Shown: in pieces, positions 9,541 to 38,139 of the stretch
How positions within the stretch are numbered: position 1 is the first letter of the stretch
Layout: each line of letters opens with the position of its first letter
From: Alphaproteobacteria bacterium
Lineage (GTDB): Bacteria > Pseudomonadota > Alphaproteobacteria > UBA7985 > JAUIBT01
Direction of reading: 5' to 3'
DNA: 64,000 bases
Assembly: GCA_030428565.1 (NCBI GenBank)
Contig: JAUIDR010000013.1
Location: 1-64,000 of the forward strand
Made by a program: the position numbers and the translations under genes
The notes under the pieces: model-generated
What the model was told of the DNA's origin: nothing
What the model saw: the letters and a program-made list of their open reading frames with translations, nothing else
The model's database searches: none

Positions 9541-10028
9541 TGGCCCCACGTTCAGGCGGTCGCCCGGTCCAGCGTCAGCGCCCCGGCCCCAAACCCAAGC
9601 GCCGGCAAAATGATCCCTCGTTGCCACCGCCCAACGCGCTCACCCCGCTGGGGTTACGACTGCGGTCTCTGCGCGAACAGCACGACCTGACCGCCGCAGA
9701 AATGGCGCGAGCGCTGGACGTCTCGCCAGCCTACCTGTCGGCTCTGGAGCACGGCCAGCGCGGCCGCCCCTCGCCGCGGTTGATGCATTTGATTTGCCAG
9801 TACTTTAATATCATTTGGGACGAGGCCGACGCGCTGTTGCTGCTGGCCGAGTTATCCGACCCCAAAGTCCGGCTGGAGACCGCCAGCTTGTCGCCCGAGC
9901 ACACGCTTCTAGCCAACCGCTTTGCCCGCGCCCTTCCCAAGCTGACCCCAAGCCAGGCCAGCCGGCTTCTGCGCACCTTTGAAAAGCTTGATCGTGACGA
10001 GCCATTGCCCGATACCGAGGCGGGCTAA
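9537..10028 (+). CDS. XRE-family helix-turn-helix regulator
   Basis: LRSLREQHDLTAAEMARALDVSPAYLSALEHGQRGRPS HTH; 4-nt overlap with Smr gene. Confidence 0.85.
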   Translation: MMAPRSGGRPVQRQRPGPKPKRRQNDPSLPPPNALTPLGLRLRSLREQHDLTAAEMARALDVSPAYLSALEHGQRGRPSPRLMHLICQYFNIIWDEADALLLLAELSDPKVRLETASLSPEHTLLANRFARALPKLTPSQASRLLRTFEKLDRDEPLPDTEAG

Positions 10029-16462: not shown

Positions 16463-17644
16463 CTAGGCGCTGCGATACAGCTTGGTCATGGAAAATTCCC
16501 GGTGACCCAGTGCTTCTGCTGCTGTGTTGCGACCGTTCGCGGTCCGGCAGATCATCTCGATCAACGCGTCACCCGCCTCATCAATGGTCTGATCGCGGCG
16601 CAGGATGCCCGACACGTCCACATCCACATGCTCAGACATGGTGCGCACGGTGCGCGGGTTCGCGGTGATCTTGATAACCGGAACGATGGGGTTGCCCACC
16701 ACGTTGCCTTGACCGGTTGGGAAGGTGTGAATGACGTAGCCCCCGGCAGCCATCAGGGTCACACATTCTGCGGCAGCCGATGAGGTGTCCATGAAGTAGA
16801 GGCCTTTTCCAGAATTTGGCTGTTCGGCAGGCTCCAGAATGTCGATGTACTGAGAGCTGCGGCCAATCTTTTCCAGATTGCCAAGGGCCTTTTCCTCGAT
16901 GGTGGTCAGACCGCCCAGAATGTTGCCCTTTGTCGGCTGGCTATCGGACAAGTCGTCGGTCTGGTGGGCGAAAATCACATCGTCCTGATAGGCCTTCCAC
17001 ATCTTGTACCAGCGCTCGCCCACCTCTTCGTTGATCGCGCGCTTTTTACAGATGTGCTCGGCACCGGTGATTTCTGAGGTCTCACCGAAACAGCCATAGA
17101 TGCCCTCGGGCAGCAGCTTGTCGTACATGTTGCCGACCGTCGGGCATGAGCCCAAGCCGGTCGTGGTGTCGCTCTCGCCGCACTTGGTGGAGACCCACAG
17201 CTCTGAAATTGAGCACTCTTCGCGCTGCAATTCGGTAGCGTAATGAACGAACTCTTTTGCTTTCCAGCTTGCCTTGCGGATGGTCTCAAAGTCGCCGTTC
17301 TGCTCGATTGAGAAGCCTTCAACCGGCTTGCCGGTGGCTGCGATACCGTCAACGATAACTTTAGTCCACTCGGGCTCAATGCCGATCACAACGACAGCGG
17401 CCACGTTAGGATTCGCGCCGGTGCCGATCATGGTACGAAAGTGCACGTCCAGATCTTCACCGAACTGCAAGCGACCGTAAGCGTGCGGGATCGCTAGCGT
17501 GCCCTTGACGTTGTTCGCGACCGCCTCAACAGCGGCGTTCGAGATATCGTCAACGGGCAGTATCAAAACGTGGTTGCGAACGCCAACACGGCCATTGTCG
17601 CGTCGATAGCCCTGGATCGTAAGATTGGAATACTTGGATGACAT
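16463..17644 (-). CDS. suyB: UxaA-family large subunit, probable (2R)-sulfolactate sulfo-lyase beta
   Basis: [38 protein letters not shown]; adjacent small subunit and hpsN-like gene. Confidence 0.8.
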
Positions 17645-17656
17645 GCTCGTTGCTCC

Positions 17657-17947
17657 TTACCAGCGCTTGGTCTTGCAATTGTGGGTGTGGACGTGGCCGC
17701 CCTTAGGGATGTCTGCGATGATCTTGCCGATGTCTTCGCCGTACTTGATGGCGGTGTCGCCCTCTTCCAGGTCTTTCAATGCGATCTTGTGGCCGATGGG
17801 AACGTCTGCACCAGCGGTCAGGTTGAAGGTCGAGTTATCGTGCGTGACGCAACAGAACATTTCCGTGCCTGCCTTCAAACCTTCGACGACGACAACACCG
17901 ACGTTGTCCTCGTGATCATGCACAAGAAGGTGCGGGATATTGGACAT
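17657..17947 (-). CDS. suyA: SAF/UxaA N-terminal small subunit, probable (2R)-sulfolactate sulfo-lyase alpha
   Basis: 96 aa; LLVHDHEDNVGVVVVEGLKAG ... HVHTHNCKTKRW. Confidence 0.8.
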   Translation of the reverse strand: MSNIPHLLVHDHEDNVGVVVVEGLKAGTEMFCCVTHDNSTFNLTAGADVPIGHKIALKDLEEGDTAIKYGEDIGKIIADIPKGGHVHTHNCKTKRW

Positions 17948-18140: not shown

Positions 18141-19139
18141 CTAGCCCCAAGGCCGGAGGATGATTTTCGGGGAGGCCACCTGGCCTGCTCGAATATCGGC
18201 GAAGGCCTGCGCGCCCTCAGTAAGGTCGCGTGCTTCCACCCAATCCAGTGCACCCAAGTGGCCCTCAAAAATGGCGGCGGCTGTCTGGCGAAAATCGTCA
18301 GCGGTGTAGGTGTAAGTTCCGATGAAGCTGATCTCTTGCAAGGTAAGGCGGCGGATGTTGAGCCCGCCCTCTGCCGACCCAAGACCGATATGCATGATGA
18401 CCCCGCCGGGGCGCACCAACGCGCTGGCCTGAGCGCGCGTCGCGGCATAGCCAACGCCATCGACCACCAAGTCAAAGCTGGCCGCCGGGTCCAAAGCGTC
18501 AGGCGTCAAAGCCTTTTGCCCGCAAGCCTGCTGCAAATAGGAGCGGCGCAGGTCATTGGGCTCGACAATGGTGACATCTTGGATGCCTTGCGCCTGGCAG
18601 CTCAAAGCTGCACCCAGGCCAATAGCCCCGCCGCCTAGGACCAGTGCCCGCGAGCCGTCCACGACGCCAGCCCCCAAGGCTTGGCGCCCCAAGCGCACTG
18701 CATGCCAACCACAAGCAATGGGCTCGGCCAAGGCTGCTTGATCGAAGCTCACGCCATCGGGCACCACCACCAAATTGCCCTCAGGCATAGTGAGCCACTG
18801 GGCAAAAGCCCCGTCACGCGGCGGCATTGAGATAATCTGGCGCTCGGGGCAAAGGTTATCGCGGCCGCCCCGGCAAGCTGGACAAATTCCACAAGTCACC
18901 AGCGGATTAACCGTCACACGTTGGCCATCGCGCGGGCCGCCAACGATGGTACCCGCTGCCTCATGGCCCAAAATCAGGGGCGCAGGACGTCGCTCGTCGT
19001 GACCCAAATAGGCGTGCATGTCTGAGCCACAAATACCGACAGACTCAACCCGGATCAGTAGCTCACCCGGGCCTGGTTCCGGCTTCAGGGCGTCCTGATA
19101 CGACAGACTTTCTTTACCAGTATAAACAAGCGCTTTCAT
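18141..19139 (-). CDS. Zinc-dependent alcohol dehydrogenase (HpsO/HpsP-type DHPS dehydrogenase candidate)
   Basis: GICGSDMHAYLG, LGHEAAGTIV, CGICPACRGGRDNLCP zinc-ADH motifs; ATGA overlap with SDR gene. Confidence 0.8.
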   Translation of the reverse strand: MKALVYTGKESLSYQDALKPEPGPGELLIRVESVGICGSDMHAYLGHDERRPAPLILGHEAAGTIVGGPRDGQRVTVNPLVTCGICPACRGGRDNLCPERQIISMPPRDGAFAQWLTMPEGNLVVVPDGVSFDQAALAEPIACGWHAVRLGRQALGAGVVDGSRALVLGGGAIGLGAALSCQAQGIQDVTIVEPNDLRRSYLQQACGQKALTPDALDPAASFDLVVDGVGYAATRAQASALVRPGGVIMHIGLGSAEGGLNIRRLTLQEISFIGTYTYTADDFRQTAAAIFEGHLGALDWVEARDLTEGAQAFADIRAGQVASPKIILRPWG

Positions 19140-19930
19140 TTTGCGGTAAAGCCTCCGTCAACCATCAAGACCTGGCCCGTCACGTAGTCGCTGGCGCGCG
19201 AGCAAAAGAACATCAGGGGTCCGTCGATGTCTTCCGGTTCGCCATTGCGCCCGGTACAGGTCTGCGCCGCGTTGCGAGCCGCCCGCTCTGGATCGTTGAA
19301 GACCGGCGCCGTCAGTTCTGTTCGAAAGAAGCCCGGACCAATGGCGTTGACGTTGATCCCGTCGGCAGACCAAGCTTGTGCCATGGCTCGCGTCAATTGG
19401 CTGATACCGCCCTTTGAAGCCCCGTAAGCCAGACCGCCTGGGAAGGCGCGGCTAGATTGCAGCGAGGCAAAATTGACGATCCTGCCCCATCCGCTTTCTT
19501 TCATGCCCGACACCAAGTACTGAGACAAAAAGAAGGGCGCCGCTAGGTTCAGGTTGAGCGTGATGTCCCAGCCTTCGGGCGTCACGTCATCGGCTTCTTG
19601 GCGGGTGTTGATGCCCGCCGCGTGTACAATAATATCCGGTGCACCAAAGGCCTGCTTTACCTTTTGGGCCAAATCTTCCAGCCCGCCGCGATCGCTAAGA
19701 TCAAAGCTGACGCCAGCAGTGCCCTGCCCTACCGGCTGCTTGTTCTGAGCTGCCACCTCTTCCTGCCAATCTGCCAAGGCATCGGCCCGACGTGCCACTC
19801 CCACGACCTGAGCGCCGGCAGCAGCCAAGACGGTCGCCGCGCGTCGCCCCAGACCGGCGCTGGCCCCCGTCACGCAAGCCACCTTGCCCGACAGGTCAAA
19901 GAAATTGGCAGGAGAAGCGCTGTTAGGCAT
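19136..19930 (-). CDS. Short-chain dehydrogenase/reductase (HpsO/HpsP-type DHPS dehydrogenase candidate)
   Basis: VTGASAGLGRRAA, YGASKGGISQLTRAMA, NVNAIGPGFFRTE. Confidence 0.85.
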   Translation of the reverse strand: MPNSASPANFFDLSGKVACVTGASAGLGRRAATVLAAAGAQVVGVARRADALADWQEEVAAQNKQPVGQGTAGVSFDLSDRGGLEDLAQKVKQAFGAPDIIVHAAGINTRQEADDVTPEGWDITLNLNLAAPFFLSQYLVSGMKESGWGRIVNFASLQSSRAFPGGLAYGASKGGISQLTRAMAQAWSADGINVNAIGPGFFRTELTAPVFNDPERAARNAAQTCTGRNGEPEDIDGPLMFFCSRASDYVTGQVLMVDGGFTAK

Positions 19931-21230
19931 CTGCGGTCAGATCAAATGTCTCGTTGGGGAAATACTTGGCCAGGCGCACATCAGCCGCGCGAGCGTGGCC
20001 TTCCATGCCCTCCAAGCGCGAAATGCGCGCGGTCGCTTCGGCCACTCCTTTAGAGCCCTCGCGGGTTGACCGCTGCCAAGTGACAATTTTCATGTACTTA
20101 TGGACCGACAGGCCGCCGGTATAAGAGGCAGCGCCGGACGTTGGCAGAACGTGGTTGGTGCCAGCAGCCTTGTCGCCATAGGAGACCGTCGTTTCCTCGC
20201 CCAAGAACAGCGAGCCATAACAAGACAGGCGGCCAAGCCACCAATCAAGATCGTCCGCCTGCACTGTCAGGTGCTCGGGTGCATAGTCGTCGGAGGTAGC
20301 GGCCATGTCTTCGCGATCATCGCAGAGGATCACTTCCGCATAATCGCGCCAAGCATCCGCGGCGTTCTTGCGGTTGGTCTCGGGCAGGTCTTCGATCAAT
20401 CCCGGCACCAACGCCATGACTTCTTCGGCTAAAGCGCGATGGTCTGTCACCAACCAAACAGGCGAGTTATAGCCATGCTCGGCCTGGCTCACCAAATCGG
20501 TTGCAACGATGTGGGCATCGGCGCTTGCATCCGCCAATATCAAGCTATCGGTCGGGCCAGCGATCATATCAATGCCGACGCGCCCGAACAAAATGCGCTT
20601 GGCTTCTGCAACGAATTGGTTGCCCGGGCCGACCAGGATGTTTGCTTTTGGCAAGCCAAACAGACCAAAGGTCATAGCGGCAACGCCTTGAACGCCGCCC
20701 ATGGCCATGATCGTATCCGCGCCGCAGATGTGCGCGGCATAGACGATCGCGGGCGCAATACCGACGCCAGGACGCGGCGGTGAGCAGGCGACGATGTGGC
20801 TGCAGCCCGCCACTTTGGCTGTGGTCACGGTCATAATGGCGCTGGCGATGTGGCTATAACGCCCGCCGGGGACATAGCAGCCCGCCGCTGCGACCGGGAT
20901 CGCTTTTTGACCTGCAACGAAGCCTGGCTGCAATTCAACCTCGATATCGGCGACCGTGGCCTTCTGAGCTTCGGCAAAGCGACGCACGTTGTCGTGAGAA
21001 AAACGAATGTCAGCCTTCAAGCGCTCTGGGACCAAAGCGCAGGCCGCTTCAATCTCCTCGGGCGAAAGAATGATATTGCCATCGTAGTTGTCGAACTTGG
21101 CGGCGTAAGCCAGTGCGACGTCATCGCCGCCTGCTTCGATTTCGTTCAAGATCTTGGTCACGATCTCGTTCACATCCGAAGCGCCAGACGTTGAGGTTAG
21201 ACTTGCCTTTTTGAGGTACTCTCTTGGCAT
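19923..21230 (-). CDS. hpsN: Histidinol dehydrogenase-family enzyme, probable sulfopropanediol 3-dehydrogenase
   Basis: PVAAAGCYVPGGRYSHIASAIMTVTTAKVAG, GPGNQFVAEAKR, AGPTDSL, APEHL; embedded in sulfonate operon; start at MPREYL. Confidence 0.8.
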   Translation of the reverse strand: MPREYLKKASLTSTSGASDVNEIVTKILNEIEAGGDDVALAYAAKFDNYDGNIILSPEEIEAACALVPERLKADIRFSHDNVRRFAEAQKATVADIEVELQPGFVAGQKAIPVAAAGCYVPGGRYSHIASAIMTVTTAKVAGCSHIVACSPPRPGVGIAPAIVYAAHICGADTIMAMGGVQGVAAMTFGLFGLPKANILVGPGNQFVAEAKRILFGRVGIDMIAGPTDSLILADASADAHIVATDLVSQAEHGYNSPVWLVTDHRALAEEVMALVPGLIEDLPETNRKNAADAWRDYAEVILCDDREDMAATSDDYAPEHLTVQADDLDWWLGRLSCYGSLFLGEETTVSYGDKAAGTNHVLPTSGAASYTGGLSVHKYMKIVTWQRSTREGSKGVAEATARISRLEGMEGHARAADVRLAKYFPNETFDLTADA

Positions 21231-21240
21231 CTTATTGATC

Positions 21241-22572
21241 CTACTTATAAATTTCGGGCAGCAGCGTGGTTGAAATCGCCGGAACGTAGGCGATGAGCAA
21301 CACGACAAGCAGCATGAAGAATACGAAGGGAATGGCGCGGCCCGCAATTTTTAAGATTGATTCTCCCGTCAAACCGGAGACCACGAAGAGATTGAGCCCC
21401 AAGGGCGGGGTGATGAAACCAACGCCTAGGGCGGTAATCATCATGATGCAGAACTGTATTTCGTTCATGCCGATATTGTCGGCCAGCGGCTTTAGGATTG
21501 GCGCCAAAATCACGATGTTGGGTGTGGTCTCCATGACGCAACCGGCCGCGATCAGAATACCGATCATCAGTAGGATCAACAGCGCCGGGCTGTCGGTCAT
21601 GGTCGTCACTGCGAAGACAAAACCTTGCGGCACTCCCAGAATGGCCAAGGCCTGCGCCAGCGGCAAAGAAAAGGCGATAATCGGCAAAATGACCCCGTTG
21701 ACCTTGGCCGAACTCACCAACATGGCCGGGAAGTCCGACAGCTTCAGCGTGCCCAGCACAAAGCCCATCAAAATGGTCACGACGACGGCGGTTGCACCGG
21801 CCTCGGTCGGCGTCAATCTGCCAGAAAAAATACCGAAGAAGATGATGCCAGGAACGATGAAGGCATACCAGCCGGAACGAAACGCCGACCAAAGTTGATC
21901 CAGCCACTCCGACCAGCTCATAAGCCCGCCACCCTCATAGGCGTAGATGCGGTTCATAATGAGGTTGGTCACAAGGATCGCGACCAAGATCGCCACCCCC
22001 GGAATGAGCGCCGCCAAAAACAGGGTTGATGCCGAAATGCCCAACACCAGGCCGATGATGATATAGGCGATAGACGGCGGGATAAGGATGCCCGTACAAG
22101 CACCAGCCGCCACCAAAGCGCAGGCGTAAGGCCGCGGGTAGCCGGACTCCACCAATCGGTCAATTGTCATACGGCCGACGGCCGCCGCGCCAGCAGCATC
22201 CGAGCCCGAGATCGCCGCGAACATACCGCAGACCAGGACCGTCGCAGAGCCAAAACCGCCTTTGGTCCAGCAGGTCAAGGCCTCGGCTACATTCAAGAAT
22301 TTGCGGCTAAGGCCGGTTCGCACCAACACGTCACCCGTCAAGATGAACAAGGGAACCGCGGTAAGCGCAAAGGCGTCGATGCCGTCGAACAGGCTCTCAC
22401 CAATCAGCGACAGCGGCAAGGCTCCAGAGAGCAGCAACATGGAGATAGCGCCGACGCCAATGGCCGCCCAAATCGGCACAGCCAAAGCCACGAGACCGAC
22501 GAACAGCAGGACGGGAATATAGAAGTCCCAACCCAGCACCACAGCTTGATTTTGCAATTGATTCCAAAGCAT
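21241..22572 (-). CDS. TRAP transporter large permease (DctM; HpsM-like)
   Basis: Multi-TM DctM pattern (SGSDAAGAAAVGRMTIDRLVESGYPRPYACALVAAGACTGILIPPSIAYII). Confidence 0.9.
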   Translation of the reverse strand: MLWNQLQNQAVVLGWDFYIPVLLFVGLVALAVPIWAAIGVGAISMLLLSGALPLSLIGESLFDGIDAFALTAVPLFILTGDVLVRTGLSRKFLNVAEALTCWTKGGFGSATVLVCGMFAAISGSDAAGAAAVGRMTIDRLVESGYPRPYACALVAAGACTGILIPPSIAYIIIGLVLGISASTLFLAALIPGVAILVAILVTNLIMNRIYAYEGGGLMSWSEWLDQLWSAFRSGWYAFIVPGIIFFGIFSGRLTPTEAGATAVVVTILMGFVLGTLKLSDFPAMLVSSAKVNGVILPIIAFSLPLAQALAILGVPQGFVFAVTTMTDSPALLILLMIGILIAAGCVMETTPNIVILAPILKPLADNIGMNEIQFCIMMITALGVGFITPPLGLNLFVVSGLTGESILKIAGRAIPFVFFMLLVVLLIAYVPAISTTLLPEIYK

Positions 22573-22585
22573 GGTCGCGCGCCCC

Positions 22586-23101
22586 CTAATCAAACAGCTT
22601 GTCGCCTTCGTACACGCACTGGCCGCGACGAAGGGCGCGCAGATCGCGCAGGAAGGACTGAATAAGGCGCAGGATCATAAGGGCGAAACCCAATGGTACA
22701 GCCGTTAAAAACCAGACCATAGAAATACGAAGACCGTGGCTTACCGAACCGAACTTGGCCGACACCATGACCGTTTCAAAGGAGTAGTAAATCGCGATCA
22801 GAGCGACGCCCAGCATGACCAAATCACCAAAGATGTAGAGCGCCGCTTTCAGGCGCGGGCTCAGATAGTGCAGCACCACATCAATACGAATGTGCGCGCG
22901 CTCTTTGACCGCTGCGGCTGCACCGATCCAGGCCAGATAAATGAAGGAGTAGCGGACGATTTCTTCGCCCCAAATCGACGAGAAAGCGAAGACTTCTCGC
23001 CGCAAGACCTCGACCGCCATGGTCACGACTAGCATGACGTAGAAGACCAACAAGGCCCACCTCTCAGCGTTTCGGTCGAGCGATTTTATTATCTCAGACA
23101 T
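22586..23101 (-). CDS. TRAP transporter small permease (DctQ; HpsL-like)
   Basis: 4 TM, FAFSSIWGEEIVRYSFIYLAWIGAAAAVKERAHIRID; start at MSEIIKS. Confidence 0.88.
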   Translation of the reverse strand: MSEIIKSLDRNAERWALLVFYVMLVVTMAVEVLRREVFAFSSIWGEEIVRYSFIYLAWIGAAAAVKERAHIRIDVVLHYLSPRLKAALYIFGDLVMLGVALIAIYYSFETVMVSAKFGSVSHGLRISMVWFLTAVPLGFALMILRLIQSFLRDLRALRRGQCVYEGDKLFD

Positions 23102-23261
23102 CCAGACCACCCTGTCGCCGCGACCCTCAATGTTGGATCTCTGGCACAATATCTTCCCAGCCAAGTCGCAGCACGCAAGGCACCCTTATCAACCTGTTCT
23201 GGGAATTTGGCGCCCGCCATTGAAAGGCATCTGCAACAGCGGGCATTCAAACAGCGAGGCG

Positions 23262-23299: not shown

Positions 23300-24445
23300 T
23301 TATGCGTCGTGGACGTAGAGACGGCCCTGCGTATTCGCTGCTTCTTCCAAGCGCGCGAAGGCATCCATAGAGCCCGCCAGGTCGACCTTAAACTGATCCC
23401 ACTCAGAGCGCTGATAGCCACCGGCTGCCTGCCACTCAGCCAACTGATCGTCAGACAGTGAGTGGAACTCAACGCCAGATTTCCTCAACTCAGACATGGC
23501 ATAGCTGCGTGCAGCCGGAACTTTCGCCAGGTTTTGCTGCGCGGTGATTTCGCCTGCAAACTCAATACCTTCCTGCACATCGCGGGGCAGAGAGTTGAAC
23601 CACTCCAGGTTCATGGAGTAGACCTGGCTGTCAGGAACAGCTTGGGTAAATGTCACGTGGCTCAGGATGTCCTTGAAGCCGAAGACGTAGAGCGCGCCAA
23701 CCGACGGATCCAGAGCATCGGCAACACCTTGCTTGATCGCAGACGGTGTCTCGCCCCATGCAACCGGTGTCGGGTTAGCCCCTACCATGCGGTAATACTG
23801 CTGCAGCATCTTTGAGCCCGGCACACGGAACTTAACACCGTCCAGATCGGCCGGTGTGATAACCGCATTACCGCCCTTGCGCACCGCAACAACGCGCGGA
23901 TCAATAACGACGTAAAACAGAGCCTTAAAGCCAGAAGCTTCGACTTTGGGATGCACCTCTTTCTTCCAAGCCTCGGACGTCACTAGGTTGGTAAAGCGCT
24001 GGTTAGAACCACAGAAGTAAGGCATGTTGATCAGGTCAACAGCGCTGGCGAAAGGCGCAAAGTTCGACAGCGAGTGCTGCGCTGCCTGAATGGTGCCGGT
24101 CTGCACCTTTTGTGCCAAAGCGCCACCCGCGCCCAACTGGCCGCCGGGCGCCAGCTTAACGTAGACCTTGCCATTGGTTGCGTTCTGGATGTTTTCCTTC
24201 AGGTCCAATTGCAAGATGGGGTAGCTGCGCGATGCGCCCAGCACGTAAGCAGTCGCAACGGTCATGATATGATCGGCTGCTTTTTCGCGCTGTTTTTCTT
24301 CTGTAGCGGTCTGAGCGGCCGCCTCAGACGACCAAAGCGTACCCGCAGCGCCCGCCACTATGGCGGCCGTAAATCCGCCAGCGCCCGCCAGCTTCAAGAA
24401 ATTGCGGCGCTCGGCCGAAGCAATCGCTTTGCGTTCGTTATCCAT
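23300..24445 (-). CDS. TRAP transporter substrate-binding protein (DctP; HpsK-like), Tat-type signal
   Basis: ERRNFLKLAGAG twin-Arg signal; DctP-type fold motifs (GVKFRVPGSKMLQQYYRMVGANPTPVAWGE). Confidence 0.88.
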   Translation of the reverse strand: MDNERKAIASAERRNFLKLAGAGGFTAAIVAGAAGTLWSSEAAAQTATEEKQREKAADHIMTVATAYVLGASRSYPILQLDLKENIQNATNGKVYVKLAPGGQLGAGGALAQKVQTGTIQAAQHSLSNFAPFASAVDLINMPYFCGSNQRFTNLVTSEAWKKEVHPKVEASGFKALFYVVIDPRVVAVRKGGNAVITPADLDGVKFRVPGSKMLQQYYRMVGANPTPVAWGETPSAIKQGVADALDPSVGALYVFGFKDILSHVTFTQAVPDSQVYSMNLEWFNSLPRDVQEGIEFAGEITAQQNLAKVPAARSYAMSELRKSGVEFHSLSDDQLAEWQAAGGYQRSEWDQFKVDLAGSMDAFARLEEAANTQGRLYVHDA

Positions 24446-24458
24446 GATGTCTCCTCCT

Positions 24459-24650
24459 TCAGGATTTCGAATTTTGATTTTTTTTGGCTGCGGCCTCTCG
24501 CTTTAGGATCGCCGCGACGAAAGCCAGCGCGGCTGCGAACAGCAGCACCATTTCGCCCACGTCCCCCAAGAACGGCTTTTCGCCGATCGAGCCCATTGCC
24601 ACGTTTGCAGCAAAGCCGCCGAACAGGATGATTGCAGTTGTCAGGAACAT
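24459..24650 (-). CDS. 63-aa predicted membrane protein, first gene of the sulfonate operon
   Basis: Two hydrophobic segments, GGAAGG ribosome-binding site before ATG, stop 13 bp before dctP start. Confidence 0.65.
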   Translation of the reverse strand: MFLTTAIILFGGFAANVAMGSIGEKPFLGDVGEMVLLFAAALAFVAAILKREAAAKKNQNSKS

Positions 24651-24690
24651 GTTTGCCTTCCTTCATCACCGTGTTGCGGTGATTGCGGGC

Positions 24691-24708
24691 AATGTAAGCG
24701 CTTACATT
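24691..24708. promoter_or_regulatory. LacI-type operator 1
   Basis: Perfect 18-bp palindrome AATGTAAGCGCTTACATT. Confidence 0.75.
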
Positions 24709-24712
24709 TTAA

Positions 24713-24730
24713 AATGCAAGCGCTTACATT
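24713..24730. promoter_or_regulatory. LacI-type operator 2
   Basis: AATGCAAGCGCTTACATT, one mismatch from operator 1; centres 22 bp apart. Confidence 0.75.
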
Positions 24731-24811: not shown

Positions 24812-25843
24812 ATGAATAAAAACACCAATCTAACCCCTACCCTGGCAGACGTCGCCCAAAAGGCCGGTGTCTCTACAGCCACGGTCTCGCGCTGCCTCAA
24901 CTCACCCGATCAGGTCGTTGAGCGCACGCGCACGCGGGTCATGGAAGCGGTCAAGGAGCTTGGCTACGCGCCAAACTTCAATGCGAGAGCCTTGGCCGCC
25001 AAGCGAACATTTACCGTGGGTGCCGTGCTTCCGACGATGGAGAACGCCATCTTTGCGCGCGGTGTTCAGGCCTTTCAAGAAGAGCTACACGGCCTAGGCT
25101 TTACTTTGCTGGTTGCAAGCTCGCTCTATCGTAGCGACGTCGAAGATGAGCAAATCCGAACCCTGGTCGCACGTGGGGCGGATGCCTTATTGCTGATTGG
25201 CTATCACCGCGATCCTAGGGTCTACCGCTTCTTAGAAAAACGCGGCGTACCGGTCATCATCGCCTGGGCCCACCAAGCGGGCGAGAACCGCGCCTCGGTC
25301 GGCTTTGACAACCTGGCCGCTATGAAAGAACTCGCCAGCCTTGCCCTAGAACAAGGTCACCGCCGCATCGCCTATATTTCCGCTGAGCAGTCCGGCAACG
25401 ACCGGGCGCGCGATCGCGTACTTGGGGTGCGGGCGGCCATGCAGGACAAAGGTTTAGACCCTGATGGCCTCGCTCTTGTTGAGACCACCTATGCCGTTGA
25501 GAATGGCGCGCAGGCCTTTGAGCGCCTTATGCAAAATGGCGAGCAGCCCACTCTGGTAATGTGCGGCAACGATGTTCTGGCGGTCGGCGCGCTGCGTGCG
25601 GCTCGATCCCTGGGGCTGTGTGTGCCGAAAGACGTCTCTATCACCGGCTTTGATGATATCGAGTTGGCAACGGTCGTTGATCCGCCGCTAACCACCGTCC
25701 ATGTGCCGCACCGCGATATGGGCCGGCGCGCGGCCCGAGCCTTGGTCGAAATGATCGATGGCAACCAAGATATAACGCCGCTTGCCCTGAACACCTACAT
25801 ATGCAAGCGCGCGACCCTGGCACCGCCCAAGACGGCAAACTAA
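24812..25843 (+). CDS. LacI-family transcriptional regulator
   Basis: TLADVAQKAGVSTATVSRCLNSPDQV HTH and periplasmic-binding-like C-terminal domain. Confidence 0.93.
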   Translation: MNKNTNLTPTLADVAQKAGVSTATVSRCLNSPDQVVERTRTRVMEAVKELGYAPNFNARALAAKRTFTVGAVLPTMENAIFARGVQAFQEELHGLGFTLLVASSLYRSDVEDEQIRTLVARGADALLLIGYHRDPRVYRFLEKRGVPVIIAWAHQAGENRASVGFDNLAAMKELASLALEQGHRRIAYISAEQSGNDRARDRVLGVRAAMQDKGLDPDGLALVETTYAVENGAQAFERLMQNGEQPTLVMCGNDVLAVGALRAARSLGLCVPKDVSITGFDDIELATVVDPPLTTVHVPHRDMGRRAARALVEMIDGNQDITPLALNTYICKRATLAPPKTAN

Positions 25844-29377: not shown

Positions 29378-30376
29378 TTATTGCAGCGCTTCATCGGTAA
29401 TGGCGTGGGTCCAAGCGCCTGTCGGCTCCATGCTGATAACCGGATCAGAACCACCCGCCAGCAGCGTCGCAACGGTACGCTCGTAATCAGCTGGGTCCAG
29501 CGAACCATTTGAGCCCGCAGTCAGCTTGGCGATTTCGCCCATCATGCGGACCTGGTGTTCTTCGGTCTGGGCACCGGTGGCATCGTTTTCAAGCACGATG
29601 TCTGCCGCGGCTTCTGGGTTCTGCTCGGCCCATTTCCAGCCCTTCATAGAAGCACGAACAAAGCGTACCATCTTGTCCTTAAAAGCAGGATCCGACAGGT
29701 TTTGTTCCAGGACGTAGAGGCCGTCTTCTTGGGTAGCAACGCCCTGCTCAGCATACTTGAAGACCACCAATTCTTCCGGGGTCAGGCCCGCGTCAATGAT
29801 CTGCCAGTATTCGTTATAGGTCATGGTAGACACGCAGTCCGCCTGGCCTTGCAAGATGGGATCGACGTTAAAGCCTTGCTTCAAGACCTCGACACCTTGC
29901 GCCGAACCGTCGGTTGGGATGCCCAACTGGCTCATCCAGCTCAAGAAGGGGAACTCGTTGCCGAAGAACCAAACGCCCAGCGTCTTGCCAGGGAAGTCAG
30001 CGGGGCTGGCAATGCCCGAATCCTTGCGGCAGGTCAGCATCATGCCCGATGACTTGAAAGGCTGGGCGATGTTGACCAGAGGCAGGCCCTTTTCGCGCGC
30101 AGCCAAGGCGGCAGGCATCCACTCAACCACCACGTCAGCACCACCGCCGGCGATGACCTGGGTCGGCGCGATGTCGGGACCGCCTGGCTTGATGGTCACG
30201 TCCAGGCCTTCGTCGTCATAGTAGCCCTTATCGGCCGCCACGTAGTAGCCCGCAAACTGGGCTTGTGTCACCCACTTGAGTTGCAGGGTCACTTTGTCGG
30301 CGGCTTGCGCCAAACCAGCAGACAGTACCACAGCTCCGGAAAGAGCCCCGGCAATCAATGCGCTTTTCAATTTCAT
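29378..30376 (-). CDS. ABC transporter substrate-binding protein (NMT1/THI5-like)
   Basis: Signal peptide; VTLQLKWVTQAQFAGYYVAADKGYYDDEGLDVTIKPGGPDI. Confidence 0.9.
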   Translation of the reverse strand: MKLKSALIAGALSGAVVLSAGLAQAADKVTLQLKWVTQAQFAGYYVAADKGYYDDEGLDVTIKPGGPDIAPTQVIAGGGADVVVEWMPAALAAREKGLPLVNIAQPFKSSGMMLTCRKDSGIASPADFPGKTLGVWFFGNEFPFLSWMSQLGIPTDGSAQGVEVLKQGFNVDPILQGQADCVSTMTYNEYWQIIDAGLTPEELVVFKYAEQGVATQEDGLYVLEQNLSDPAFKDKMVRFVRASMKGWKWAEQNPEAAADIVLENDATGAQTEEHQVRMMGEIAKLTAGSNGSLDPADYERTVATLLAGGSDPVISMEPTGAWTHAITDEALQ

Positions 30377-30403
30377 AGTTTCCTCCTTTTGAACTTGAAA
30401 AGG

Positions 30404-31255
30404 TTATGGTTTCGTCCGCTCGCGCTGAGAGGGGTGCCAAAAGGTCAACCGCTGCTCAAAGTAAGACAAGACGCCATAAGTCCCCGTTCCGACCATGGCC
30501 ACAACGAGAATTTCTGCCCAGACCAGCTCCAAATTGAGCTGCCCGACTGCTGTTGAGATACGAAAGCCCATGCCCTTGACCGGCGAGCCGAAGAACTCGG
30601 CCACGATGGCGCCAATCAGCGCCAGGGTAGAGGCAATCTTAAGACCATTGAAGATGAAGGGCAGCGCAGCGGGCAAACGTAGCTTGATCAGCGCTTGCCA
30701 ATAGCTGCTGCCATAAGTGCGAATAAGATCGCGCTGCATTTGATCTGTGTCTTGCAGGCCTTCGACCGCATTCACCAGCACCGGGAAAAAGACCATGACC
30801 ACCACGACCGCGGCCTTTGATTCCCAATCGAAGCCGAACCACATGACCAGGATCGGCGCCAGGCCGATGATTGGCAGCGCCGCGACGAAGTTGCCGATCG
30901 GCAGCAGGCCGCGACGCAAAAACGAGTACTGATCGACCAAAATCGCGGCTCCGATAGCAGCGCTGCATCCCAGGATGTAACCCGACAGAGCGCCCTTGAC
31001 GACGGTCTGCACGAAGTCCGTGAACAGGATCGGCAAGGCGGTGAAAAATGTGGCGACGATGCTGGATGGAGGGGGCAGCAAAACCCGCGGTACACTCAAT
31101 CCGCGCACGATCGCTTCCCACAGAACCAGCAGAGCGATGCCAAAAATAATCGGCACGATTGCCCCGGCGTAAGGTAGGCTGGCTGAGCGCGAAAGGCGGA
31201 TATTGAGATAGAAGAGCGCCGCCCAAATTAAGATAGCAATCAGGATCATGATCAT
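30404..31255 (-). CDS. ABC transporter permease (SsuC/TauC/NitT type)
   Basis: EGLQDTDQMQRDLIRTYGSSYWQALIKLRLPAALPFIFNGLKIA EAA-loop; start at MIMILIAI. Confidence 0.88.
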   Translation of the reverse strand: MIMILIAILIWAALFYLNIRLSRSASLPYAGAIVPIIFGIALLVLWEAIVRGLSVPRVLLPPPSSIVATFFTALPILFTDFVQTVVKGALSGYILGCSAAIGAAILVDQYSFLRRGLLPIGNFVAALPIIGLAPILVMWFGFDWESKAAVVVVMVFFPVLVNAVEGLQDTDQMQRDLIRTYGSSYWQALIKLRLPAALPFIFNGLKIASTLALIGAIVAEFFGSPVKGMGFRISTAVGQLNLELVWAEILVVAMVGTGTYGVLSYFEQRLTFWHPSQRERTKP

Positions 31256-32127
31256 CGCACAAACCCCATCCGCTTCAGCGTGATCCGTTGCAGCAAGCCG
31301 ATCAGATTGACGAGCACAGCCGCCAGAACGGCCGCCATAATCAGCGCGCTCCAAATCTGAATGGTCTGGCCGTAATAACTGCCCGCCAACAGGCGCGCAC
31401 CTAGGCCTGCCACGGCACCAGTCGGCAGCTCGCCGACGATGGCCCCGACCAGCGAGGCCGCCATAGCGACCTTCAGCGATGCAAACAGATAGGGCACCGA
31501 GGCTGGCAAGCGCAACTTCCAGAATGAATCCGAATGGCTCGCGTTCCAGGTGCGCATTTGATCGAGCTGAATTTTGTCGGGGCTGCGCAGCCCTTTGACC
31601 ATCCCGACGACCACGGGGAAGAAGGACAGATAGGCCGAGATTATCGCCTTGGGCACCAGCCCAGAGATCCCAATCGAATTCAAGATGACGATAATCATCG
31701 GCGCAATGGCCAAGATGGGAATGGCCTGACTGGCGATGATCCAGGGCATCACGCTCATGTCAACGACACGAAAATAGACGATCAACACAGAGAGCCCTAC
31801 CCCAAGGCCAACACCGAAGGCAAAGCCCAAGACCGTGGAGCTCATCGTCACCCAGCTATGGAATATCAGTGAGCGCTTTGATGTAATTTTCTTTTCAACC
31901 GTGGTCTTGTAAATCTCCGCGGCGACTTGGTGGGGCACCGGCAGGCGCGGCTTCTTCTGGCTCCAGGTCTCCTGCACAAGCTCTACAGCGCCCAAGGTCT
32001 TACCCGCGCGCTCGGCGCGATCCAGGGCCCAGTTGGCGTTCAGCGCAATGGCGGCCAAATACCAGAAGGCTCCAATCGCCAGAGAGATTATTAAAACAGG
32101 CCCATAGCGGTGCCAGACCTTAGCCAT
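31252..32127 (-). CDS. ABC transporter permease (second subunit)
   Basis: KGLRSPDKIQLDQMRTWNASHSDSFWKLRLPASVPYLFASLKVA EAA-loop. Confidence 0.88.
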   Translation of the reverse strand: MAKVWHRYGPVLIISLAIGAFWYLAAIALNANWALDRAERAGKTLGAVELVQETWSQKKPRLPVPHQVAAEIYKTTVEKKITSKRSLIFHSWVTMSSTVLGFAFGVGLGVGLSVLIVYFRVVDMSVMPWIIASQAIPILAIAPMIIVILNSIGISGLVPKAIISAYLSFFPVVVGMVKGLRSPDKIQLDQMRTWNASHSDSFWKLRLPASVPYLFASLKVAMAASLVGAIVGELPTGAVAGLGARLLAGSYYGQTIQIWSALIMAAVLAAVLVNLIGLLQRITLKRMGFVR

Positions 32128-32902
32128 CCTGGTGGCCCCCTCTCAATCCCTCGCGCACCCGGTGGGACAGCGCCATGAATTCGGGCGTATCACGGATGTC
32201 CAAGGGCCGATCATCGGGCAGCGTATTGTCGATCACTTCCGTAATGCGCCCGGGACGCGGCGACATAACGACGATCTTGGTAGAGAGATAGACCGCCTCG
32301 GGGATGGAGTGGGTCACAAAACCAATGGTCTTTTTCGTGCGCCGCCACAGGGCCAAGAGCTGCTCGTTCAGGTGATCGCGCACGATCTCATCCAGAGCAC
32401 CGAACGGCTCGTCCATCAGCAAAATATCGGCGTCAAAGGAGAGCGCCCGGGCAATGGAGGCGCGCTGCTGCATGCCGCCCGAGAGCTGCCAGGGAAACTT
32501 ACCGCCAAAGTCGTCAAGTTCGACCAAAGACAGCGCGGCTTTGGCGCGCTCTTCTTGTTCTTCCGGATCGTACCCCATGATCTCCAGCGGCAGCTTGATG
32601 TTCTTGGCGATCGTGCGCCAAGGAAACAGGCCTGCCGATTGGAACACATAGCCATAAGCGCGGTTCATACGCGCCGTCTCGGGGTCTTGCCCGTTGACGC
32701 TGATCTTACCCGCGGTGGGCTTTTCAAGATCAGCAATGACCCGCAAGAAGGTGGTCTTCCCGCAGCCCGATGGACCAATAAAGCTAACGAACTCGCCGCG
32801 CTCTATGTCCAGGTCCACATCCTTCAGGGCATGGACCGGACCGTCATTGGTCTCAAATGTCAGGCTGATGCCGCGCGCGCTTATCGCGGTGTTGTCGCTC
32901 AT
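32120..32902 (-). CDS. ABC transporter ATP-binding protein
   Basis: Walker A GPSGCGKTT, LSGGMQQRASIARALSFDADILLMDEP; start at MSDNTAIS. Confidence 0.93.
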   Translation of the reverse strand: MSDNTAISARGISLTFETNDGPVHALKDVDLDIERGEFVSFIGPSGCGKTTFLRVIADLEKPTAGKISVNGQDPETARMNRAYGYVFQSAGLFPWRTIAKNIKLPLEIMGYDPEEQEERAKAALSLVELDDFGGKFPWQLSGGMQQRASIARALSFDADILLMDEPFGALDEIVRDHLNEQLLALWRRTKKTIGFVTHSIPEAVYLSTKIVVMSPRPGRITEVIDNTLPDDRPLDIRDTPEFMALSHRVREGLRGGHQDG

Positions 32903-32949
32903 TCGCCTCGCCCCTTCGGTTTGGATCGACCCATCGCTGTTTTCATCGG

Positions 32950-34413
32950 CTAGATACCCGCTGGGATGTTCATGGGATCGCGCTGGATGGCCTTGGGGCT
33001 GGTCAGCTCCTTCCACTTAGACAGCGCAATGTTTGCGGAATGGAACGCTGGGCGCGGCACAAAACGGCCTCGGCCAGGCTGAGGCTGCGAGTTCTGGCCC
33101 CAGGCCCAAATCACGTCACCGCGTGAGATTGTATAGCGCGCTTGCGCCTTGACTTCCCACCCTTCGAAGACATTGTAATCCAGGATGGAATGGTGGTTGG
33201 TGGCCGAAATCGTCTTACTGAGTTTGGGATCCCAGACCACAATATCCGCGTCCGCGCCTTCAACCAGCGCCCCTTTCTTGGGGTAGATGTTCAGGATCTT
33301 GGCAATATTGCTGGAGGTGACTGCAACGAATTCGTTGGGTGTCAGACGGCCGGTCTCGACCCCTTCGGTCCACAGCACCGCCAAGCGCTCCTCAAGGCCA
33401 TTTGAGCCATTGGGAATGAAGCAGAAATTATCCCGGCCCATGCGTTTTTGTTCGGTCGTAAAGGCAGCGTGGTCGGTCGCGACAACCTGCAAAGAGCCCG
33501 CTTGCAGCCCCGCCCACAGGCTGGCCTGGTGTTCTTTGTTGCGGAATGGCGGGCTCATGACGCGGCGTGCGGCGTGGTCCCAGTCCTTGTTGAAATATTC
33601 GCTCTCATCCAGGGTCAAGAACTGTACCAGCGGCTCGCCATAGACCCGCATGCCCTTCTGGCGTGCGCGTCGTATGGCTTCGTGGGCCTGCTCGCAAGAG
33701 ACGTGCACGACGTAGAGCGGCACCCCGGCAGCATCGGCAATGGTAATCGCGCGATTGGCCGCCTCACCCTCAAACTCGGGCGGGCGTGAATAGGCGTGGC
33801 CTTCGGGGCCGGTGATGCCCTTTTCCAGCATGGCTTGCTGCATGTCCGCCACCAGGTCGCCGTTCTCTGCGTGGACCATGGGCAGCGCGCCCAGCTCCTT
33901 ACAGCGCTTGAAAGAGGCGAACATCTCGTCGTCCTCGATCATCAGCGCGCCCTTGTAGGCCATGAAGTGTTTAAAGGAATTGACGCCCATATCGACGGCG
34001 TCTTTCATTTCATCGAAAACGTTCTCGTTCCAACCCGTAATGGCCATGTGATAGCCAATGTCAGAGCAGATCTGCGGCGCCGATTTGCGATGCCATTCGT
34101 GGATCGCATTCTTGATCGAGCCGTCCGTGCCGGGCAGGCAGAAATCGACCAGCATCGTCGTGCCGCCACAAGCCGCCGCCCATGTGCCAGTCTCAAAAGT
34201 CTCAGCAGCGGTGGTGCCCATAAAGGGCATTTCAAGGTGAGTGTGCGGGTCAATGGCGCCCGGAATGACATAGGCCCCTTCAGCGTCAATGTAGGTATCA
34301 CCCTTCAAATCTTCGCCGATCTGCTTGATGGTCTCGCCTTCGATCAGAACGTCGGCTTTCCAACTGCGATCGGCGGTGCAGACGGTTCCGCCCTTAACAA
34401 CTTTCGTAGACAT
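32950..34413 (-). CDS. Dihydropyrimidinase (D-hydantoinase family)
   Basis: GAIDPHTHLEMPFMGTTAAETFETGTWAA, FKHFMAYKGALMIEDDEMF, VVATDHAAF. Confidence 0.9.
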   Translation of the reverse strand: MSTKVVKGGTVCTADRSWKADVLIEGETIKQIGEDLKGDTYIDAEGAYVIPGAIDPHTHLEMPFMGTTAAETFETGTWAAACGGTTMLVDFCLPGTDGSIKNAIHEWHRKSAPQICSDIGYHMAITGWNENVFDEMKDAVDMGVNSFKHFMAYKGALMIEDDEMFASFKRCKELGALPMVHAENGDLVADMQQAMLEKGITGPEGHAYSRPPEFEGEAANRAITIADAAGVPLYVVHVSCEQAHEAIRRARQKGMRVYGEPLVQFLTLDESEYFNKDWDHAARRVMSPPFRNKEHQASLWAGLQAGSLQVVATDHAAFTTEQKRMGRDNFCFIPNGSNGLEERLAVLWTEGVETGRLTPNEFVAVTSSNIAKILNIYPKKGALVEGADADIVVWDPKLSKTISATNHHSILDYNVFEGWEVKAQARYTISRGDVIWAWGQNSQPQPGRGRFVPRPAFHSANIALSKWKELTSPKAIQRDPMNIPAGI

Positions 34414-34523
34414 GCTTTCCTCCTGTTAAATCCGCTTTGGCCGTTCGCACGCTCTAATTGGCGTACGCAGCCTGTTTCATTTTTGCGGTCAGCCATTTTG
34501 GATGGCTGGTGGCTAGCTTCATC

Positions 34524-35774
34524 CTAGCTGACGATCTCTGCTGTTTCGACGACCGCGTGAAACAGCACCTCTGCCCCTTTGGTGGACCAATCTTGCGAAA
34601 TCTCTTCCGCCTCGTTGTGGGACAAGCCATCGACACAAGGGCACATCACCATAGAAGTAGGCGCGACCGCATTGATCCAACAGGCATCATGACCCGCGCC
34701 TGAGATGATGTTCATGTGCGAATAGCCCAGCCGTTCAGCCGCCGAACGAACCGCCGTCACGCAGCCCGCATCGAAGGTCACAGGATCAAAGCCACCGACT
34801 TTCTCAAACGCGATGCTCAGCCCCATGTCGTCGGCAATTTTTTGCCCCTCGACCCGCAAGCGCTGCTCCATGTCCTGAATGACGGCGAGGTCCGGAGAGC
34901 GGAAATCCACCGTAAACACAACCTTGCCCGGAATCACATTGCGCGAGTTGGGGAACACGTCGATGTGACCGGCCGCGCCGACCGCGTGCGGTTTGTGTGA
35001 CCAAGCGATCTCATCGACCTTTTCCAAGACGCGCGCCATGCCCAGTCCCGCATTTTTGCGCATCGGCATGGGCGTCGAGCCGGTATGTGCGTCCTTGCCC
35101 TCGATTGTTACTTGCGTCCAGCTTAGCCCCTGGCCATGGGTGACAACGCCGATATCGGTCTCTTCAGCTTCCAAAATCGGGCCTTGCTCAATGTGCAGCT
35201 CAAAGAAAGCATGCATCTTGCGCGCGCCAACTTCTTCTTCGCCTCGCCAACCGATGCGCTTCAGCTCATCGCCAAACTTTAACCCCTTGGCGTCTTCGCG
35301 GTCATAGGCCCAGTCGAGCGTGTGCTTGCCAGCAAAGACACCCGAGGCCAGCATAGCGGGCGCATAGCGCGTGCCTTCTTCGTTGGTCCAATTGGTAACA
35401 ACAATGGGATGCTTGGTCTGGATACCCAAATCGTTCAAAGAGCGCACAATCTCTAAGCCCGCCAGCACGCCTAGGACGCCGTCATACTTGCCGCCCGTAG
35501 GCTGCGTATCCAGGTGCGAGCCGACATAGACCGGCACTGCGTTGGGATCGGCCCCTTCGCGGCGTGCAAACATATTGCCCATCTTATCGACGCCCATGCT
35601 ACAGCCTGCCGCTTCGCACCAGGATTGGAACAGCGCCCGGCCCTCTGCGTCTTCATCGGTTAGGGTTTGGCGATTGTTGCCGTCTGCGATGCCCGGTCCG
35701 ATCTTGGCCATCTCCATCAGGCTGTCCCACAGCCGTTGACCGTCGATTTTCAGGTTCTTGAGTTCTTCTGTCAC
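34524..35774 (-). CDS. Zn-dependent amidohydrolase (beta-ureidopropionase / N-carbamoyl-amino-acid amidase, M20 family)
   Basis: VGSHLDTQPTGGKYDGVLGVLAGLEIVRSL, TNEEGTRYAPAMLASGVFAG, ELHIEQGPILE. Confidence 0.9.
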   Translation of the reverse strand: MTEELKNLKIDGQRLWDSLMEMAKIGPGIADGNNRQTLTDEDAEGRALFQSWCEAAGCSMGVDKMGNMFARREGADPNAVPVYVGSHLDTQPTGGKYDGVLGVLAGLEIVRSLNDLGIQTKHPIVVTNWTNEEGTRYAPAMLASGVFAGKHTLDWAYDREDAKGLKFGDELKRIGWRGEEEVGARKMHAFFELHIEQGPILEAEETDIGVVTHGQGLSWTQVTIEGKDAHTGSTPMPMRKNAGLGMARVLEKVDEIAWSHKPHAVGAAGHIDVFPNSRNVIPGKVVFTVDFRSPDLAVIQDMEQRLRVEGQKIADDMGLSIAFEKVGGFDPVTFDAGCVTAVRSAAERLGYSHMNIISGAGHDACWINAVAPTSMVMCPCVDGLSHNEAEEISQDWSTKGAEVLFHAVVETAEIVS

Positions 35775-35891
35775 CTTTGCCTCCCGATGGGTTCGCGCGC
35801 CATACGCCGACTGAGCGCCGCGCCTTCAATCGCCTCGCCCGTCGCGCTCTTGCTAGGGGAGGCCTTTTTAATGACTGGGGCGCGTTAGGCC

Positions 35892-37199
35892 CTAGTCTAA
35901 CCTCTCCAAGACCCGCCGCAGCGTGCCAAATAATTCGTCAATTTGGGGTTTGTTAATGATGAGCGGCGGGCTTAGCGCTATGATGTCGCCAGTTGTGCGA
36001 ATGAGCAAGCCCGCCTCATAAGCATCCAAAAACGCTTGGAACGCGCGCTTGGTCGGCGCGCCGGCAATCGGCTCCAACTCGATCGCACCAATCAAGCCCA
36101 TGTTACGAATGTCAATGACGTGGGGCAGGTCGCGCAGGTCATGGATTGCCGCCTGCCAATAATCCGCCAAGCCAGCGGCGTTTTCGAACAGCCCTTGTTC
36201 CTTATAGACCTCAAGCGTCGCCAGGCCGGCCGCCGAGGCGATGGGATTGCCGGAATAAGTATAGCCGTGGAACAGTTCGATCAGGTTTTCAGGCCCGGTC
36301 ATAAACGCGTCATGAATGGCGGCTGTCGTCAGCACAGCGCCCATCGGAATGACGCCGTTGGTCAGCCCCTTGGCGGTCACCATCAGGTCAGGAAGAACGC
36401 CAAAATGCTCAGCGGCAAAAGACGAACCCAAGCGACCAAAGCCCGTGATGACCTCATCGAAAATCAACAGAATACCGTGCTTTTGAGCAATGTCGCGCAA
36501 GCGCTGCAGATAGCCCTTGGGCGGCAGCAAGACGCCCGTTGAGCCCGCCATGGGCTCGACAATGACTGCGGCAATTGTCTCTGCGCCGTGCAAGGCAATG
36601 ATCTTTTCAAGCGCGTCCGCCCGCTCGATGCCGTGTTCGGGCTGGCCTTTGGTAAAGGCATTGAGCTCGGGCAGGTGCGTATCTGGCAGGTGGTCCACGC
36701 CGGTAAGCAGCGATCCAAAGACCTTGCGATTGTTGACAATACCGCCAACCGAGATACCGCCGAAATTGACGCCGTGATAGCCGCGCTCACGCCCGATCAA
36801 GCGGGTACGCTGCCCCTCCCCACGCGCGCGGTGGTAGGCGATAGCGATCTTGAGCGCGGTCTCAACCGACTCAGAGCCCGAATTGGTGAAAAAGGCGTGC
36901 TCGATGCCCTCGGGGGCCATATCGACCAACTGACTGGCGAGCTGAAAGGCCTTGGGGTGGCCGATTTGGAACGCGGGGGCGTAATCCAACTCACCGGCTT
37001 GCGCGCGGATCGATTCAACGATTTTTGGTTGATTGTGGCCCGCGTTGCAGCACCAGAGCCCGGACGTTCCGTCCAGGACTTGGCGGCCGTCGGCCGTGGT
37101 GTAATACATGCCGTCCGCGGCAACAAACATGCGCGGGGACGCCTTGAACTGCCGATTCGCGGTAAAAGGCATCCAAAACGCCCGAAGGTCGTTCTGCAT
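35892..37199 (-). CDS. Class III aminotransferase (beta-alanine/omega-amino acid:pyruvate type)
   Basis: FWMPFTANRQFKASPRMFVAADGMYY, LLIFDEVITGFGRLGSSFAAEHFGVLPDLMVTAKGLTNG; start at MQNDLR. Confidence 0.88.
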   Translation of the reverse strand: MQNDLRAFWMPFTANRQFKASPRMFVAADGMYYTTADGRQVLDGTSGLWCCNAGHNQPKIVESIRAQAGELDYAPAFQIGHPKAFQLASQLVDMAPEGIEHAFFTNSGSESVETALKIAIAYHRARGEGQRTRLIGRERGYHGVNFGGISVGGIVNNRKVFGSLLTGVDHLPDTHLPELNAFTKGQPEHGIERADALEKIIALHGAETIAAVIVEPMAGSTGVLLPPKGYLQRLRDIAQKHGILLIFDEVITGFGRLGSSFAAEHFGVLPDLMVTAKGLTNGVIPMGAVLTTAAIHDAFMTGPENLIELFHGYTYSGNPIASAAGLATLEVYKEQGLFENAAGLADYWQAAIHDLRDLPHVIDIRNMGLIGAIELEPIAGAPTKRAFQAFLDAYEAGLLIRTTGDIIALSPPLIINKPQIDELFGTLRRVLERLD

Positions 37200-37268
37200 A
37201 ACCTGCCTCCCTACTCTGGTCGTCGACGACTTTAGTCGTTCTTGAGTCTTGCCTAACAAAATTCGCAC

Positions 37269-37299
37269 GATCGGTCAACAATTTTAGCATGATCGGTCA
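37269..37299. promoter_or_regulatory. Candidate TetR operator repeats
   Basis: GATCGGTCA at 37269-37277 and 37291-37299, 22-bp period, upstream of the transaminase operon. Confidence 0.4.
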
Positions 37300-37479
37300 G
37301 GAAATGTGGGGAACTTAGCACGGGCGGGGGCGAAAATTGATCTTTTGAACAAAAAAGCCTAGAAGTGAGACCAAGAACAGGGGCTTACGACAGCAGACCT
37401 GCTGCGTCGAAATGGGCCGAAATTGCAGACAAACAGCGGACTTCCAGCTCTGGTTTGAAGGCCGACGACGGGGAAACTG

Positions 37480-38139
37480 ATGGAAAAGCGGGCGCCAAAA
37501 AAGCAGAGCCAGAACCGGCAAAAGACCCTGAAGAAGATCCTGGACGCGGCCGAGCGAACCTTTGCTCAACACGGCTATACCGGGGCGTCCTTCAGCATGA
37601 TTGCCCGGGCTGCCGACATTCCAAAATCCAACATCCTCTATTATTTTCCGAACAAAGAGAGCCTCTATCGCACCGTCGTCGAAGACATTTTCAGCGTCTG
37701 GGTGCACGCCGCCGACTCCATTGAAGAAGACACCTGTCCGCGCGCCGCTTTGGCCAGTTATATCGACCTGAAAATGGAGCTGGCCCGCTCGCGCCCCTTC
37801 GGCTCTAAGGTCTGGGCCAACGAGGTCATTCAAGGCGCGCCGGTGCTGCAAGATTATTTGGTCACGGAGCTACGCGATTGGACCGAAACGCGGATTAAAG
37901 TCATCAATACCTGGATCGAAAAGGGCAAGATGCGCCCGGTCAATGCGCGCAATTTGCTCTACATGATTTGGGCCACCACCCAGCACTATGCCGATTTCAG
38001 TCACCAAATCGAAAAACTGAACAATAACAAGCCCATGAGCAGCGCCCAATGGGAGGAAGCCAAGGTTGCCGTCAAAGCCATCATCTTGGATGGAGTCTTG
38101 ACCGCCGACCCAGCGCCGCCCCCTTCGAATGACACATGA
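37480..38139 (+). CDS. TetR-family regulator (RutR-like) 1
   Basis: ILDAAERTFAQHGYTGASFSMIARAADIPKSNILYYFPNKESLY; RutR-like C-terminal region. Confidence 0.9.
   Translation: MEKRAPKKQSQNRQKTLKKILDAAERTFAQHGYTGASFSMIARAADIPKSNILYYFPNKESLYRTVVEDIFSVWVHAADSIEEDTCPRAALASYIDLKMELARSRPFGSKVWANEVIQGAPVLQDYLVTELRDWTETRIKVINTWIEKGKMRPVNARNLLYMIWATTQHYADFSHQIEKLNNNKPMSSAQWEEAKVAVKAIILDGVLTADPAPPPSNDT

Follow-up and report, generated by a model that had tools for sequence, protein, structure and literature searches.

A conserved two-helix membrane protein encoded ahead of hpsKLM is a proposed fourth component of a DHPS TRAP transporter

Introduction

TRAP transporters are defined as three-part systems, and the operon analysed here raises the question of what a fourth, very small gene does at its head. 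This gene, which we call ORF63, lies in a 64,000-nucleotide stretch of an alphaproteobacterial contig (JAUIDR010000013.1, positions 1 to 64,000; the window). An earlier sequence-only reading had described its product as an undescribed 63-aa membrane protein leading a sulfonate TRAP operon, and had offered two roles for it, i.e. accessory TRAP subunit or membrane chaperone.

The transporter has a described counterpart in HpsKLM of Ruegeria pomeroyi DSS-3 (SPO0591-0593), which is an experimentally verified importer of 2,3-dihydroxypropane-1-sulfonate (DHPS) (PMC10130141). DHPS is reported to be an important marine organosulfur currency between phytoplankton and bacteria (PMC11131964).

Results

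ORF63 heads an operon matching the DHPS cluster of R. pomeroyi

The features of the locus, with coordinates in the window, are:

16463-17644, minus strand: suyB-like large UxaA-type subunit
17657-17947, minus strand: suyA-like small UxaA-type subunit
18141-19139, minus strand: zinc alcohol dehydrogenase in the hpsP position (family match)
19136-19930, minus strand: SDR in the hpsO position (family match; order as in R. pomeroyi)
19923-21347, minus strand: hpsN-like gene, histidinol-dehydrogenase family (TIGR00069; probable true start near 21230)
21241-22593, minus strand: dctM/hpsM, TRAP large permease (TIGR00786, 302 bits)
22586-23164, minus strand: dctQ/hpsL, TRAP small permease (YiaM-like; synteny; probable true start 23101)
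23300-24445, minus strand: dctP/hpsK, TRAP substrate-binding protein with a twin-arginine-like signal (NF037995; 89% identical to the R. pomeroyi locus)
24446-24458, minus strand: spacer between ORF63 and hpsK with the ribosome-binding site AGGAGGAG (read from the sequence)
24459-24650, minus strand: ORF63, 63 aa, proposed fourth HpsKLM component (translation, dN/dS, conserved position, AlphaFold)
24656-24663, minus strand: ORF63 ribosome-binding site AAGGAAGG (read from the sequence)
24693-24706, no strand assigned: LacI-type operator TGTAAGCGCTTACA (palindrome scan; conserved in aligned loci)
24715-24728, no strand assigned: LacI-type operator TGCAAGCGCTTACA (palindrome scan; conserved in aligned loci)
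24812-25843, plus strand: divergent LacI-family regulator, hpsR orthologue (syntenic in homologous loci)

The R. pomeroyi locus has the same operon, i.e. a LacI-type regulator, TRAP P-Q-M and HpsN-O-P. Because the gene order matches and DctP is 89% identical, we conclude from sequence comparison that the operon in the window is an orthologue of the DHPS cluster hpsR-hpsKLM-hpsNOP, in agreement with the earlier view of ORF63 as the first gene of a sulfonate TRAP operon. Moreover, the hpsN-like protein is 55.7% identical to the annotated hpsN product of Cupriavidus pinatubonensis, and SuyA/SuyB are followed on the minus strand by a sulfolactate-dehydrogenase-like protein and a YeiH exporter.

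ORF63 is on the minus strand, which the sequence-only reading did not state; its coordinates and its peptide, letter for letter, are those given in that reading. The gene starts with the ATG at 24650 behind the good ribosome-binding site already noticed, and 13 nt, as previously counted, separate its stop from the ATG of hpsK at 24445, which has its own ribosome-binding site. The two operators, placed by the earlier reading just upstream of ORF63, sit between it and the divergent lacI gene; by chance, 0.10 such sites would be expected in the window. Of 11 aligned loci, 10 preserve the double operator 5' of ORF63 intact. A sigma-70 scan from the operators to ORF63 detected no promoter-like site, a result of low weight in an alphaproteobacterium.

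In the published tags of the R. pomeroyi cluster (SPO0590-0596), hpsR (SPO0590) is followed by hpsK (SPO0591) with no gene between them (PMC4334477). The R. pomeroyi genome also has the small ORF (9789-9977 of the extracted locus, 62 aa); the small protein is thus undescribed and without a tag number in the published locus.

ORF63 is a protein-coding gene under purifying selection

In three congeneric pairs, the in-frame dN/dS of ORF63 was 0.09-0.16. Among ten Roseobacter-group copies, pS was 0.61 and pN 0.10 in its own frame, while in the two other frames of the same copies pN exceeded pS, i.e. the constraint vanished. A near-neutral substitution pattern had been named beforehand as an argument against the gene; the pattern observed is the opposite, and the gene is kept across genera. 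In total, we conclude that ORF63 is a real, conserved protein-coding gene under purifying selection and represents a new small-protein family.

These data bear on the reading that ORF63 is a leader peptide or upstream ORF, the translation of which, and not the product, controls hpsK expression. ORF63 is indeed a short first ORF, and the gap from its stop to hpsK ranges from a few nt to about 60. However, this distance is variable, hpsK has a ribosome-binding site of its own, the strong amino-acid constraint is confined to the ORF63 frame, and one profile recognises ORF63 across families. A leader peptide would combine an unconstrained product with an essential upstream position, a combination that ORF63 does not display, and we regard this role as very improbable.

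Homologues of ORF63 are named hypothetical protein in RefSeq and GenBank. The homologue in Rhodovulum sulfidophilum (AP014802.1, NHU_04457, BAQ71570.1; 4700-4924 of the extracted locus) bears the label 'major facilitator superfamily MFS_1', a wrong name for a protein of about 70 aa with two helices.

The product is a predicted helical hairpin distinct from known TRAP proteins

The family has a length of about 61 aa. The AlphaFold model of ORF63 is a helical hairpin with helices at residues 2-21 and 30-62 (mean pLDDT 90.5), the loop of the family is acidic with a mean net charge of -1.75, and the tail is basic with about three K/R; thus, the two hydrophobic segments, acidic loop and basic tail recognised by the sequence-only reading are all borne out. 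Given the acidic loop and the basic tail, the positive-inside rule predicts that both termini are cytoplasmic and that the loop is periplasmic. Near-invariant residues are F10, N16, V17 and G20 in helix 1 and D30, E33, M34, L37, A40, F44, V45, L49 and E52 in helix 2, and in each helix the conserved positions cluster on a single face (p 0.002 and 0.017), as they would in a membrane protein packing on a partner or on itself.

Whether ORF63 alone or 55 family members were searched against Pfam and NCBIfam, no model exceeded its cut-off and the sub-threshold matches were spread over unrelated families; none of the 55 members showed homology to known transporter-modulating small proteins (AcrZ, KdpF, CydX and similar) in these databases. 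A sequence search of the PDB with ORF63 returned one chance match (E 0.19), and Foldseek with the ORF63 model returned helical hairpins of a generic kind, all without significance (the best, a flagellar export gate chain, at E 0.70). In keeping with its earlier description as undescribed, the protein has no relative detected in Pfam, NCBIfam or the PDB and is hypothetical in RefSeq. Similarly, a search of the open-access literature found no description of a small extra TRAP subunit, and one may exist elsewhere.

ORF63 resembles DctQ in that both are small integral membrane proteins encoded with dctP and dctM; however, DctQ has four helices and ORF63 two. Two candidate identities were rejected. 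Hhalign probabilities of 0.1-4% speak against ORF63 being a piece of DctQ, DctM or DctP, and membership of the DctQ family is contradicted by the two helices instead of four, by an hhalign probability of 0.1% against HpsL and by the separate dctQ in the operon. TatT of Treponema pallidum, like ORF63, is encoded by an additional gene in a TRAP operon, but TatT is soluble and helical and has a central pore (PMC5812351), unlike a membrane hairpin.

ORF63 tracks the HpsK-type transporter

A family HMM was built from seven ORF63 copies and applied to the best 80 of 464 dctP relatives obtained from a scan of 85,462 species. All 80 of these HpsK loci contained exactly one match, always immediately 5' of hpsK and in the same orientation; like the genome counts below, this count is of non-independent cases because the genomes share ancestry. 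Lack of conservation in other hps loci had been the other outcome named in advance as counting against the gene, and these loci show the contrary. Among 385 sampled alphaproteobacterial genomes, 15 had HpsK, and the small ORF was present in 15 of 15. Two further genomes gave a match; the sole credible one adjoins an HpsK fragment at a contig end, and the second is weak and lies within a long unrelated frame. Scans at class and phylum level found the small gene in 22 of 22 HpsK loci, which partially overlap with the loci above. In the sample, HpsK forms a discrete clade: leaving aside the contig-end fragment, no match fell below 71% identity, and no further sequence passed E 1e-40. Finally, a scan of viral contigs with ORF63 gave no match.

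Two matches were rejected as homologues, since they lie inside long open frames (329 aa in L008 and 632 aa in L025) and no hps neighbours were detected. Two loci from records titled Gammaproteobacteria MAG (L029 and L103) have an HpsK that is 85-88% identical and contain the small gene; either the operon moved into Gammaproteobacteria, or these contigs are misbinned.

As controls, we used 12 plasmid loci with HpsN-type dehydrogenases and without HpsKLM. No ORF63 homologue was detected in these 12 loci (best E 0.43), only two of which (L147 and L157) are clear LacI-hpsN-SDR-ADH clusters, while most others resemble related sulfonate (cysteate-type) pathways. In Paracoccus ferrooxidans, LacI-hpsN-SDR-ADH stands beside an ABC transporter, and the arrangement in C. 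pinatubonensis is LacI-hpsN-hpsO-MFS; the other ten appear to encode related sulfonate pathways with ABC transporters, unrelated TRAP transporters or no adjacent transporter. Moreover, among seven TRAP operons inspected in the host genome, a free-standing small two-helix gene was present in one, the hps operon. In the loci inspected (the best 80 of 464 dctP relatives), the gene was always with, and only with, the transporter genes. In total, we conclude that ORF63 tracks the transporter and not the DHPS pathway.

The P. ferrooxidans locus (L147; plasmid CP038201.1, 729-11027) is of separate interest: its hps cluster has no TRAP transporter, and a divergent ABC transporter and SuyA/SuyB-like genes adjoin it. 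By this placement, the ABC transporter is a candidate DHPS importer in place of HpsKLM.

A probable archaeal relative follows dctM

A plasmid of Haloarcula pelagica (NZ_CP126163.1, 541-8262) encodes YeiH, SuyA/SuyB-like and hisD-like proteins, DctP, DctQ and DctM, followed by a 93-aa hypothetical protein. The DctP is HpsK-like (54% identical). The 93-aa protein (WP_284011574.1), with two helices and encoded after dctM, is the top match of the family HMM in this locus; its score is weak (17 bits), and 2000 segment-composition-preserving shuffles reached a maximum of 11.4 bits. On this basis, WP_284011574.1 is probably a relative of ORF63. If this homology is true, the protein accompanies the TRAP genes even from a place other than the head of the operon, and a leader-peptide role becomes less likely still. 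The cluster itself suggests that DHPS or sulfolactate use was transferred between bacteria and haloarchaea.

The same locus bears on the proposal that ORF63 is a membrane chaperone or assembly factor for the insertion of HpsL/HpsM, or a membrane partner for the export of HpsK, and so lies outside the mature complex. In alphaproteobacterial loci the small gene is translated first, before the transporter genes, as would suit such a factor, and the Q subunit itself was at one time proposed to act as a chaperone (PMC8276074). However, the probable archaeal relative would be translated after dctM, and the other TRAP operons of the host genome manage without such a gene; we consider this role improbable.

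A proposed fourth part of HpsKLM

We favour, with moderate confidence, the reading that ORF63 opens the DHPS operon controlled by HpsR and codes for a small integral membrane protein dedicated to HpsKLM as its accessory fourth subunit. The earlier suggestion of an accessory subunit or membrane chaperone has gained the support of conservation, selection and transporter specificity; physical association with HpsL/HpsM, the contact site and an effect on uptake are what we infer from sequence.

In the proposed mechanism, the two-helix hairpin, with its termini in the cytoplasm and its short acidic loop at the periplasmic face, would most likely pack against HpsL (Q) and the scaffold portion of HpsM (M), which together make up the immobile scaffold. 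In this position it may make the complex more stable or help it to assemble, or it may give shape to the periplasmic face on which HpsK docks. In the solved SiaQM, the transport domain of M moves elevator-like and Q enlarges the fixed scaffold so that the monomer works (PMC9971032). This extension of the M scaffold by Q is a precedent for scaffold-bracing subunits, and a hairpin with polar residues at its periplasmic rim would suit scaffold bracing or a docking face for HpsK. On the other hand, TRAP transporters of known structure (SiaQM) function with no protein of this type (PMC9971032), which argues against the subunit reading. ORF63 was also compared for coevolution (MI with APC) with HpsK/L/M, and with HpsN, SDR, ADH and LacI for control; its signal with HpsL/M did not exceed that with soluble operon enzymes, its mirror-tree correlation was highest with LacI, and neither measure told the transporter subunits from the controls.

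The main rival is a small membrane protein with a regulatory role, comparable to AcrZ, MgtS/MgtR or FeoC, that would adjust the activity or specificity of HpsLM or its turnover. Many small membrane proteins modulate other transporter families (PMC10710835), and ORF63 sequences share about 50% identity where those of HpsK/M share 85%, a faster divergence of the kind often seen in modulators. Sequence does not separate a modulator from a structural subunit; however, ORF63 is strictly operonic and accompanies the transporter in every inspected locus, and a constitutive part therefore fits better than an occasional modulator. We judge a modulator unlikely, if less so than a chaperone. In how it may work, an HpsKLM subunit of this kind would resemble AcrZ, MgtS, KdpF and LucB, each a very small membrane protein with a single transporter that it binds, stabilises or tunes (PMC10710835; for KdpF, PMC3618439), but these serve other transporter families.

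The new element is a fourth gene of one TRAP clade, conserved but functionally undescribed, and with it the suggestion that a fourth part of the transporter has been overlooked. More tentatively, and with slightly more doubt than confidence, we propose that the transporters of this clade, which would span marine alphaproteobacteria and a haloarchaeon, consist of four parts, with an obligate two-helix subunit in the membrane complex, and that P-Q-M models would be incomplete there. Reconstituting HpsKLM alone may then omit a needed part, and ORF63 would offer a direct route to what limits TRAP assembly and binding-protein docking. The neighbourhoods of other TRAP clades could be screened for a similar small gene.

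Neighbouring genes in the window

Beside the hps operon, positions 29378-38789 of the window look like a cluster for pyrimidine/hydantoin catabolism that includes an ABC transporter of its own. As judged from translations, its genes encode a substrate-binding protein, two permeases, an ATPase, and hydantoinase-like, amidase-like and aminotransferase proteins, followed by two TetR-like regulators.
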